Of a DNA stretch of 44,153 nt, positions 4,279 to 28,236 are shown piece after piece (the first letter of the stretch is position 1; the number at the start of each line of letters is the position of its first letter). Position numbers and translations under genes: made by a program. Under the pieces are notes generated by a model. The model made no database searches, was not told where the DNA came from, and worked only from the letters and a program-made list of their open reading frames with translations. The stretch comes from Patescibacteria group bacterium (GTDB lineage: Bacteria > Patescibacteriota > Patescibacteriia > 2-12-FULL-60-25): NCBI GenBank assembly GCA_018830865.1, contig JAHJRN010000035.1, forward strand, positions 1 through 44,153, in the 5' to 3' direction.

Positions 4279-4307
4279 TTGACGGTCCTGCGGTCGGGAC
4301 GTATCCT
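4279..4307 (+). promoter_or_regulatory. Promoter of the T-box/thrS transcript
   Basis: TTGACG (4279-4284), exact 17-bp spacer, TATCCT (4302-4307). The predicted start is near 4314, giving a leader of about 145 nt up to the regulated terminator. Confidence 0.8.
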
Positions 4308-4313
4308 TTCTCT

Positions 4314-4459
4314 GCTGGACTCACCAACCAGTCGCAGTCAGAACCGAAGATAAGAGCGTTCCGGCACGTGTCGGAGAAGCCGGGTGGAACCGCTCCGACG
4401 TGACGTCGGAGCCCCGACGCATCGTCCTTCGTCAGGACGGCCCGTCGGGTATTTTTATT
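4314..4459 (+). ncRNA. Miniature T-box riboswitch (threonine) with regulated terminator
   Basis: The T-box core GGGTGGAACCGC lies at 4382-4393. An antiterminator is visible: CGGG (4381-4384), bulge TGGAACC (4385-4391), a 9-bp stem GCTCCGACG / CGTCGGAGC (4392-4400, 4404-4412), then CCCG (4413-4416) pairing back to CGGG. The same CCCG begins the competing terminator CCCGACG / CGTCGGG (4413-4419, 4443-4449) with U-rich tail 4450-4459. UGGA pairs with the UCCA ends of both tRNA-Thr genes in this window. Upstream there is only one small hairpin (4312-4337) whose loop holds ACC at 4323-4325 followed by A, a codon read by tRNA-Thr(GGU), and a second small hairpin CCGGC/GTCGG (4361-4374). Known for T-boxes: uncharged tRNA stabilises the antiterminator and turns on the synthetase gene. 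The specifier assignment is inference; the rest is visible. Confidence 0.88.
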
Positions 4460-4470
4460 CAAATCAAACC

Positions 4471-4573
4471 TGTCGTTGCGAGCGGAGTACGACGGAGCGC
4501 GGCAACCTTACCGAAATCCTTCGATCGGAGAGTCAGGGTAAGATTGCTTCGTCATCGAATTCCTCGCAACGAC
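4471..4573. repeat. Palindromic REP-like element in the thrS leader
   Basis: Outer arms TGTCGTTGCGAG (4471-4482) and CTCGCAACGAC (4563-4573) are inverted, with inner complementary pieces (CAACCTTACC near 4510, GGGTAAGATTG near 4537). It resembles the dispersed GTCATTGCGAG-type palindromes common in bacterial genomes. It lies between the T-box terminator and the thrS start codon, so it is part of the read-through mRNA. Confidence 0.7.
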
Positions 4574-4587
4574 GATTTAATACATAT

Positions 4588-6375
4588 ATGTCCTACCCCA
4601 TCGAGACCATGCGGCACAGCGCCGCGCACGTCATGGCCGCGGCTATCCAGAAGCTGTTCCCGGACGTTAAGTTCGGCGTCGGTCCGGCAATCGAACACGG
4701 GTTCTACTACGACATCGACATCGGACGGGCTGTCACGCCTGAGGACCTGAAGGCCATCGAGAAGGGGATGTGGCACATCGTGAATCAGGATGCGGAGTTC
4801 GTGCGGGAGGAGATGTCGCTCGACGAGGCCGTCTCCTTGTTCGAGAAACTGAACCAACCGTATAAGGTCGAGCTGTTGAAGGATTTGAAGGAGAAGGGGA
4901 CGACCAGGTTCGGCGCAGAGGAGGCGGGGGACGTCGACCCGGCGAATACGGAACGGGCGACGGTCTATCGGACGGGGACGTTCACGGACCTGTGCCGAGG
5001 GCCGCATGTCAGCCATGCGAAGGAAGTCGGCGCGTGGAAGATCATGAAATCCGCAGGCGCATATTGGCGGGGGAACCAGGAGAATCCTCAGATGCAGCGT
5101 ATTTATGGTGTATGTTTTGCGACGCAAGAAGAGCTTGCTGCGCATCTTGTCATGCTCGAAGAGGCGAAGAAACGGGATCATAAGGTCCTCGGTCCGGCGC
5201 TCGATCTCTTTACGTTTTCGGACCTCGTCGGCCCGGGCCTACCGCTTTGGACGCCGCGCGGGACCATCCTGCGCGACACGTTGGACGCGTACGTCTGGGA
5301 GTTGCGCCACGCGAAGGGGTATGAGCGCGTCGAGATCCCGCACATCACCAAGAAGGAGCTCTACGAGACGAGCGGCCACTGGGCCAAGTTCAAGGACGAG
5401 CTGTTCCGCATCGTGACGCGCGAGGGGCATGAGTTCGCCATGAAGCCCATGAACTGTCCGCACCACACGCAGATCTACGCGCGACGGCAATGGAGCTACC
5501 GTGAACTGCCGCAGCGGTACGCTAATACCACGATGTGTTATCGCGATGAGCAGACGGGCGAACTCTCCGGCCTGTCACGCGCCCGCAGCTTCACGCAGGA
5601 CGATGCACACGTGTTCTGCCGAATGAGCCAGGTCAAGGAGGAGTTCCTCAAGATCTGGGACGTCATCCATACGTTCTACGGGACGTTCGGATTCTCGCTG
5701 ACGGTTCGCGTTTCCTTGCATGACCCGGCGCATCCTGACAAGTATCTTGGCGACCCGGCGCGATGGCAGGATGCTGAGGGTGTTCTCCGTGAAATCGTGA
5801 AGGGGCAGGGCACCGAGGCGTTCGAAGCCGTGGGCGAAGCCGCATTCTACGGGCCGAAACTCGACTTCATGGCGAAAGATTCGCTCGGACGCGAGTGGCA
5901 GGTCGCGACCATCCAGCTCGACATGAACATGCCTGAACGGTTCGACCTCTCGTGCATCAACGAACAAGGCGAGGCGGAGCGCATCGTGATGATCCATGCG
6001 GCCATCATGGGGTCCATCGAGCGGTTCCTCTCCATCGCCATCGAGCACTATGCCGGCGCGTTCCCGCTCTGGCTCGCGCCGGAACAGGTCCGGCTTCTTC
6101 CTGTCGCGGACCGACATGTCGAATTCGGCGAGGCGCTCGCGACGGAATTGCGGGAGAAGGGGCTGCGTGTCGAGGTGGACGCGAGCGCCGAGTCCATCCC
6201 GAAGAAGGTCCGCAACGCGGAACATCTCAAAATCCCGGTCATGCTCGTGGTCGGTGATAAGGAGGCGGGCGGCGAGGCCTTGGCGGTCCGTCGCTATGGC
6301 ATCAAGGACCAGACGACGCAATCGAAAGACGAGCTCGTCGCGGGTCTGCTCGAGGAGATCCGGTCGAGGAAATAG
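4588..6375 (+). CDS. thrS: Threonine--tRNA ligase (no TGS domain)
   Basis: The enzyme charges tRNA-Thr with threonine using ATP. It has 595 aa, whereas many bacterial ThrRS are around 640; the N-terminal TGS domain is missing because the editing-domain motif HSAAH is already at residues 10-14. The second editing motif CRGPH is present (DLCRGPHV). Catalytic-core signatures follow: PMNCPHH (zinc-ligand Cys near residue 290), RSFTQDDAH (motif 2) and GSIERF (motif 3), then an anticodon-binding domain to the end. The start at 4588 gives the standard MRHSAAHVMAAA beginning; the frame is open further upstream but runs through the T-box and repeat and is not protein-like. Expression is predicted to be induced by uncharged tRNA-Thr through the T-box at 4314-4459. 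No Shine-Dalgarno is seen before the ATG. Confidence 0.97.
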   Translation: MSYPIETMRHSAAHVMAAAIQKLFPDVKFGVGPAIEHGFYYDIDIGRAVTPEDLKAIEKGMWHIVNQDAEFVREEMSLDEAVSLFEKLNQPYKVELLKDLKEKGTTRFGAEEAGDVDPANTERATVYRTGTFTDLCRGPHVSHAKEVGAWKIMKSAGAYWRGNQENPQMQRIYGVCFATQEELAAHLVMLEEAKKRDHKVLGPALDLFTFSDLVGPGLPLWTPRGTILRDTLDAYVWELRHAKGYERVEIPHITKKELYETSGHWAKFKDELFRIVTREGHEFAMKPMNCPHHTQIYARRQWSYRELPQRYANTTMCYRDEQTGELSGLSRARSFTQDDAHVFCRMSQVKEEFLKIWDVIHTFYGTFGFSLTVRVSLHDPAHPDKYLGDPARWQDAEGVLREIVKGQGTEAFEAVGEAAFYGPKLDFMAKDSLGREWQVATIQLDMNMPERFDLSCINEQGEAERIVMIHAAIMGSIERFLSIAIEHYAGAFPLWLAPEQVRLLPVADRHVEFGEALATELREKGLRVEVDASAESIPKKVRNAEHLKIPVMLVVGDKEAGGEALAVRRYGIKDQTTQSKDELVAGLLEEIRSRK

Positions 6376-10856: not shown

Positions 10857-11254
10857 TGGTGGAGATGGGGGGAATCGCACCCCCGTCCGATCCGTCACGA
10901 GCCGCAGGGTCTTCACAGGCTTGGTCCGCTGCTGGGATCTCGGCGCGGGGTGGACGAGCGGACGAGAACCCCGTGCCTACATATCCAGCCTGTCAGCCGG
11001 CGCGGGATATGAGCGCACCGGACTCGAGCCCGAACGATGACGATCCGATCCGCAAGGTCGGGCCGCGAAGCGGGGGATCGTGACGATCGCTTACGCGAGC
11101 GCCATTGCAGGTGCGGAGACACGGAACGCCGAAGCGAACGTGTTCTGTACCTTGTTCAAGACGTTGGCAGTTGTCTTGCATGGGACGGTTTTACGAGGTG
11201 TCCCGGCTCGGCCTGCGTCTGCGGATGTAAGGACCGTCGAAGCTGATCATCCCC
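10857..11254 (-). ncRNA. ssrA: Transfer-messenger RNA (tmRNA)
   Basis: The 5' end GGGGATGATCAGCTTCGACGG (11254 downward) and 3' end GGTGCGATTCCCCCC...CATCTCC-ACCA (ending 10857) form the tRNA-like acceptor: GGGGATG pairs with CATCTCC with one G-U. The CCA is encoded. The T-arm GGGGGTGCGATTCCCCCC is evident. The tag reading frame lies at 11168-11091. With SmpB it rescues stalled ribosomes by trans-translation. smpB lies 71 bp upstream on the same strand and infC starts 16 nt downstream. Total 398 nt, within the usual range for one-piece tmRNA. Confidence 0.95.
11091..11168 (-). other. tmRNA tag-peptide reading frame (25 aa, ends ALA)
   Basis: From the resume codon GCC at 11168 the frame reads ANVLNKVQNT..., ends ...APAMALA and stops at TAA (11093-11091): 25 codons. 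The start is inferred from the usual Ala resume codon and the in-frame stop followed by a stem. The C terminus is ALA rather than the common LAA or ALAA, but still small and hydrophobic as expected for a degradation tag. Confidence 0.75.
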
Positions 11255-28160: not shown

Positions 28161-28236
28161 GCCGTTGTAGCTCAGCTGGTAGAGCATCTCCATGGTAAGG
28201 AGAAGGTCACCGGTTCAATCCCGGTCAACGGCTCCA
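28161..28236 (+). tRNA. tRNA-Thr(GGU)
   Basis: 76-nt cloverleaf: acceptor GCCGTTG / CAACGGC, anticodon stem TCTCC/GGAGA around ATGGTAA (anticodon GGT), T arm CCGG-TTCAATC-CCGG. The discriminator is T with encoded CCA. It reads ACC, the candidate specifier of the thrS T-box, and its UCCA end fits the T-box UGGA. Confidence 0.96.

Follow-up and report, generated by a model that had tools for sequence, protein, structure and literature searches.

The leader of the threonyl-tRNA synthetase gene (thrS) in the window, by which we mean the whole analyzed stretch of 44,153 nt from a tiny-genome Patescibacterium, is very probably a transcription-attenuating T-box riboswitch for tRNA-Thr(GGU) that is reduced to a codon hairpin and an aminoacylation sensor (Table 1). 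A preliminary description of the sequence had proposed a minimal transcriptional T-box in front of thrS, and the proposal is borne out by the T-box core, by covariation and by loop codons that track the downstream gene in relatives. In T-boxes, the anticodon of an uncharged tRNA binds the specifier while the NCCA end of the same tRNA pairs with the UGGN bulge, and the antiterminator is thereby stabilized; charged tRNA cannot do this (PMC7583486). The leader in the window would read the tRNA via the anticodon and the acceptor end only. If this is true, the working rule that transcriptional T-boxes have a long elbow-binding Stem I would be overturned, and the leader would perhaps be the smallest natural RNA that tests both the identity and the charging of a tRNA. 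The miniature leader is also a compact part for synthetic biology, and it belongs to a group, the Patescibacteria, that relies on nutrients from its hosts and about whose gene regulation hardly anything is known.

Elements of the thrS leader and their predicted switching

Table 1 Elements of the thrS leader, the gene behind it and the predicted ligand in the window
Feature	Position	Strand	Remark
Sigma-70-type promoter TTGACG-17-TATCCT	4279..4307	+	-35 TTGACG 4279-4284, -10 TATCCT 4302-4307
Specifier hairpin CUGG-ACUCACCAA-CCAG (reduced Stem I)	4315..4331	+	Covaries in relatives
ACC codon, followed by A, in the specifier hairpin loop	4323-4325	+	Codon tracks the gene in relatives
Linker between specifier hairpin and Stem III motif	4332..4353	+	22 nt
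Stem III with flanks	4354..4378	+	GAGCG (RRRxG) 4354-4358, stem 4359-4376, AA 4377-4378; motif as in PMC7583486
Antiterminator	4381..4416	+	A1, CGGG 4381-4384 with CCCG 4413-4416; A2, 9 bp, 4392-4400 with 4404-4412
T-box bulge UGGAACC of the antiterminator	4385-4391	+	UGGA complementary to UCCA of tRNA-Thr
T-box core CGGGUGGAACC	4381-4391	+	
Intrinsic terminator	4413..4459	+	CCCGACG 4413-4419 / CGTCGGG 4443-4449, U-rich tract 4450-4459
thrS, threonine--tRNA ligase, predicted gene under control	4588..6375	+	TIGR00418, E 8e-193
tRNA-Thr(GGU), predicted ligand	28161..28236	+	Anticodon loop AUGGUAA, 3' end UCCA

The promoter, the T-box core, the 9-bp apical antiterminator stem and a terminator sharing CCCG with the antiterminator are all located where the preliminary description had placed them, and the UGGA of the core is, as claimed there, complementary to the UCCA ends of both tRNA-Thr genes in the window. 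The specifier hairpin was retained in part: ACC followed by A stands as the codon, but the extent of 4312-4337 was replaced by 4315-4331, which is given by the relatives. The pairing GACU/AGUC, favored by a single-sequence fold, was dropped because the relatives covary at CUGG/CCAG. The long Stem I, described as missing, is indeed missing in the window, where the hairpin is only 17 nt long and begins 7 nt after the end of the -10 box. With the promoter so near, the transcript would start at the hairpin, and thus no space would be left for an elbow-binding distal Stem I. In the window's family, a TTGACN-17/18-TANNNT promoter is located upstream of the hairpin in 18 of the 22 leaders with a called hairpin, and among the 18 leaders with a recognized promoter, 15 have a distance of 6-11 nt from the end of the -10 box to the called hairpin, so the hairpin should lie near the 5' end of the RNA in this family. 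The position of Stem II is occupied by the linker, which at 22 nt, where a typical Stem II domain takes up ~70 nt, would leave no room for Stem II or a IIA/B pseudoknot, and neither an S-turn (AGUA/GAA pair) nor a pseudoknot is visible in it. The remaining T-box hallmarks are present: Stem III carries GAGCG and AA on its two sides, the specifier fits the amino acid of the gene, and the N of the UGGNACC bulge is complementary to the discriminator base.

In fold predictions, transcripts with ends from 4417 to 4446 form the antiterminator, and from 4449 onward the terminator fold is preferred, by 7.6 kcal/mol in the full leader. The two structures are mutually exclusive, with CCCG (4413-4416) common to both, and the fold switches between 4446 and 4449. 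The terminal A2 pair (4392/4412) is G-C in the window and G-U in 21 of 42 relatives; this pair, G-U in many T-boxes, has been described as a steric sensor of the amino acid. The U tract of the terminator ends 128 nt ahead of the thrS start codon (4588), and the ThrRS proteins nearest to the encoded one come from Candidatus Uhrbacteria and other Patescibacteria.

From these elements we infer the following mechanism. The 5' end of the RNA would be at, or a few nucleotides from, the small hairpin, and its loop with ACC and the following A would kiss the GGU anticodon loop as two tRNAs with complementary anticodons do. Stem III and the antiterminator would constitute the aminoacylation sensor, in which the UGGA bulge would base-pair with the 3'-terminal UCCA of tRNA-Thr that is uncharged. 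Under a shortage of threonine or ThrRS, the uncharged tRNA would span both modules and hold the antiterminator, and the polymerase would enter thrS. Charged tRNA would be unable to hold the antiterminator; CCCG would then join the terminator, and transcription would end.

Two further observations concern the window outside these elements. A 106-nt near-perfect inverted repeat (4469-4574; z -4.3 as RNA) lies between the terminator and thrS and has kin at well over ten further sites of the genome (72-85% identity); the copies suggest a MITE-like mobile repeat within the thrS leader of this genome. For the tmRNA gene (10857-11254, minus strand), ARAGORN gives an unusually long 31-residue tag (DRHDPPLRGPTLRIGSSSFGLESGALISRAG), which may reflect a mis-set frame.

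Conservation, covariation and matching of codons and tRNA ends

The core [ACGT]GGTGGAACC is found before thrS in 19 of 80 relatives. A covariance model built from seven leaders (R1), whose E-values are rough, matches the window at E 3e-22 and gives no other convincing match in the same genome. As a second T-box in this genome we rejected a perfect AGGTGGCACCACG match that has no Rfam match, no fitting hairpins and no aminoacyl-tRNA synthetase (aaRS) gene after it; one-mismatch matches to the core and weak covariance-model matches (E 0.14 and 3.7) were not accepted either. R1 matches 26 of 41 family genomes, 24 of them directly upstream of thrS. It has no match in the other 15, so the element appears often to have been lost or to have diverged too far for R1. 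Within the class, 118 of 381 genomes, in 95 of 292 genera, match at E<=1e-4, and a sample of 287 genomes from across the phylum gave 29 with a match. One family match (L134) was discarded as a false positive and L259 was discarded as having no T-box core; L126 runs off its contig. Of 80 further class matches that were read, 62 have thrS and 10 have glyS in the fetched stretch. The genes of the relatives were called mostly by similarity to one query or by reading the N-terminus, with an NCBIfam check of one example each of GlyRS, ProRS, ValRS, AspRS, an N-acetylglutamate-synthase (NAGS)-like acetyltransferase and MetK.

The comparison of related thrS leaders, on which the preliminary description had staked its proposal, came out in favor of it: many relatives have thrS leaders with the core and with compensatory changes in both hairpins. 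In the seven founding leaders, 97.5% of the cells pair, and 12 of 23 pairs contain a compensatory change. In 42 leaders fitted to R1 (alignment A3, which leans to the structure of the model it was fitted to), 95.7% pair and both partners vary in 22 of 23 pairs. This covariation was reached by none of 500 shuffles, and slid controls drop to 34-56%. Independently of the model, among 55 leaders with 47 distinct 5' flanks, the six-base flanks of C[UC]ACCAA loops pair at 5 or 6 positions in 49, compared with 13.5% when 5' and 3' flanks are swapped between leaders. Both this flank-swap test and the gene-blind codon scan described below were made without alignment A3. Stem III is followed by AA in all 105 leaders and has RRRxG beside the best stem in 75 of them, in a search that favors the motif (background 3.6%). 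A terminator overlapping the antiterminator was recognized in 48 of 80 leaders by a strict automatic scan that demands unbroken stems. The TGGNACCNC core string alone is not rare, with 8 occurrences in the window against 4.9 expected. What lies beyond chance is the recurrence of the core with the same hairpins before thrS in relatives, together with compensatory changes.

The codon in the hairpin loop follows the downstream gene. The thrS loops contain ACC in most leaders, ACG in L123, L130 and L132, ACA in L121 and ACU in L267. All ten glyS leaders contain GGC in the hairpin loop, e.g., CCAAAAG-AGAUCGGCA-CUUUUGG and CAGU-AUUGGCA-ACUG, and the proS leader L139, to which the leader L138 is identical, has the codon CCC in the loop of GGG-GUUCCCAG-CCC. 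In scans blind to the gene name, a GGC loop closed by a stem of 5 bp or more was found in 9 of 10 glyS leaders versus 12 of 95 thrS leaders (Fisher 9e-7), and ACN followed by a purine was found in 76 of 95 thrS leaders versus 17 expected from shuffles. The Thr codon alone separates the two groups weakly, being present in 4 of 10 glyS leaders. These swaps, with ACN for thrS, GGC for glyS and CCC for proS, back the earlier assignment of ACC as the specifier. The common 7-nt loop, C-U-ACC-A-A, is laid out as an anticodon loop is in tRNA, and the UACCA within it complements the UGGUA at positions 33-37 of tRNA-Thr(GGU); the 9-nt loop of the window presents ACCA to UGGU. At the other end of the tRNA, UCCA terminates all 15 distinct tRNA-Thr and the one tRNA-Gly that were found, and UGGA is present in all 105 collected thrS and glyS leaders, a set in which the class matches were picked on a TGGNACC core and the 34 others on GGTGGAACC or TGGAACC. 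The proS and valS leaders contain UGGU, and their tRNAs end with ACCA.

The search with the Rfam T-box model that the preliminary description had suggested gave a divided result. RF00230, which is calibrated on class I T-boxes with a long Stem I (gathering cut-off, 93 bits), has no match in the window up to E 10 and none in its genome, but several leaders of relatives match it below the cut-off. The miniature leaders receive 27-37 bits, and the sub-threshold matches in thrS leaders have E-values from 4e-7 to 2e-4 per genome. Because RF00230 was built without these sequences, its matches to the relatives provide independent support. A covariance model made from the leaders themselves recovers elements that Rfam overlooks.

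Likenesses to known T-boxes and alternative readings

The leader shares with the Firmicutes class I T-boxes (RF00230) the specifier codon, the RRRxG...AA motif, the UGGN bulge, the overlapping terminator, the aaRS target and the match to the discriminator base. It differs from them as follows: First, the long Stem I and its elbow-binding double T-loop motif are absent. Second, a hairpin loop, and not a side bulge, holds the codon. Third, the host is Patescibacterial. The ultrashort Stem I T-boxes of Actinobacteria (ileS; Sherwood et al. 2015, via PMC7583486) likewise have the codon in the apical loop and no elbow motif, but they are mostly translational and need a Stem II with an S-turn and a IIA/B pseudoknot, whereas the leader in the window has a terminator, no Stem II and, together with its relatives, Thr, Gly or Pro codons instead of Ile. 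Glycyl T-boxes of the B. subtilis glyQS type are also transcriptional and devoid of Stem II, but they retain a long Stem I that contacts the elbow. The long-Stem I T-boxes of related Patescibacteria have the same 3' module, some of them at thrS, and retain a distal Stem I of the AGAGAG...GGUUGAGAG type, which is absent from the window leader. As judged from the sequence, the leader is a transcriptional element that has neither the elbow-binding motif nor room for a typical Stem II. It is unusual since a long Stem I that bears the elbow-binding motif is generally needed in transcriptional T-boxes, and a truncated Stem I hardly binds tRNA when Stem II is absent (PMC7583486). These precedents weigh against the reduced T-box, as do the G-C pair at the end of A2, the lack of an RF00230 match in the window and the 15 family genomes in which R1 has no match.

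Either the loop-loop and NCCA pairings would suffice, or a third contact that we have not recognized would exist. We lean, by a little, toward the former in a general form, namely a phylum-wide group of Patescibacterial transcriptional T-boxes that work by kissing of a 7- or 9-nt codon loop and by UGGN/NCCA pairing, with no elbow contact or Stem II, in which Stem I was cut short exactly at the specifier and given codons for Thr, Gly or Pro. A T-box in which the linker, an outer helix (P1) or a protein makes a third contact in place of the elbow or Stem II is the less probable of the two, though a serious possibility. It would agree with the Actinobacterial short Stem I RNAs, which require Stem II (PMC7583486), and with the leaders across the class, which have a covarying GAUUG...CUAA outer helix and often an extra hairpin. 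The window itself argues against it, because its linker has only 22 nt, its promoter leaves almost nothing 5' of the hairpin, and no S-turn or pseudoknot is visible.

An ordinary actinobacterial ultrashort T-box acting on translation would also have a short Stem I that presents the codon in its apical loop (PMC7583486). This reading is improbable here, as an intrinsic terminator with a U tract overlaps the antiterminator, Stem II and the pseudoknot are missing, and thrS begins so far downstream (128 nt) that no ribosome-binding site would be sequestered. Even less credence goes to an operator that binds ThrRS by imitating the anticodon arm of tRNA-Thr. Such an operator mediates the autoregulation of E. 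coli thrS, and a short stem capped by 7 or 9 unpaired nucleotides before thrS does look like an anticodon arm. We reject this mimicry because the loop carries Thr codons (ACN) and not anticodons (NGU); moreover, the glyS and proS leaders carry codons of their own, and the T-box bulge and the terminator would be left unexplained. Chance resemblance, which the insignificance of the short core string in the window and its unrelated copies elsewhere in the genome might suggest, is refuted by the comparative data, in which dozens of genera have the element before thrS, its helices covarying and its codons matched to the gene; the probability of chance resemblance is negligible.

Origin and spread of the miniature form

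The reduced T-box, as we prefer to read it, probably descends from a form with a long Stem I. In the RF00230 alignment, the proS leader keeps the canonical Stem I base AAAGC-AUGAA-GGG ... CCC-UGGAGC, and the 76 RF00230 positions above it are replaced by seven nucleotides that contain the codon, a shape that truncation right at the specifier would be expected to give. The AUGAA...UGGAGC of the Stem I base (where a K-turn would lie) is kept in proS, glyS and some thrS leaders and is not recognizable in the window. Related Patescibacteria have long-Stem I T-boxes at thrS (L011, L014, L019 and L202) and elsewhere (L135, above the Rfam cut-off). The thrS leaders L011, L014, L019, L006 (identical to L255), L187, L202 and L220 resemble long-Stem I T-boxes, with a distal AGAGAG...UGAGAG and the specifier AUACCAC. 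These long-looking leaders place long and miniature forms at the same gene. Across much of the class, the hairpin lies inside an outer helix that carries a conserved GAUUG...CUAA. Class-wide thrS leaders (L187-L266) show GAUUG 5' of the hairpin and, ahead of the strand that closes the outer helix, CUAA or CCAA, which together form an internal-loop motif.

The distribution of R1 matches shows predicted tRNA-sensing attenuation to be common in Patescibacteria; we found no account of T-boxes in this group in the open-access literature, which was the scope of the search. Several leaders stand before genes other than thrS, glyS and proS. L135, L136 and L137, from the window's family, are long T-boxes by RF00230, all with UCCGUAA near the expected specifier, and precede genes that are glutamate-cysteine-ligase-like, histidinol-phosphate-aminotransferase-like and, as judged by eye, trpD-like, respectively. 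L245 is a Thr-type miniature T-box (loop UCACCAA, core UGGA) in which the first long downstream ORF is metK, not thrS. The aspS leaders L225 and L250 have a UGGC core and, as the candidate specifier in both, AAC (Asn) inside UAGAAC, as would be expected if the AspRS were non-discriminating and charged tRNA-Asn as well. At last, L247 and L251 are near-identical leaders with a UGGU core on one contig, each located before a gene for an N-acetylglutamate-synthase-like acetyltransferase.
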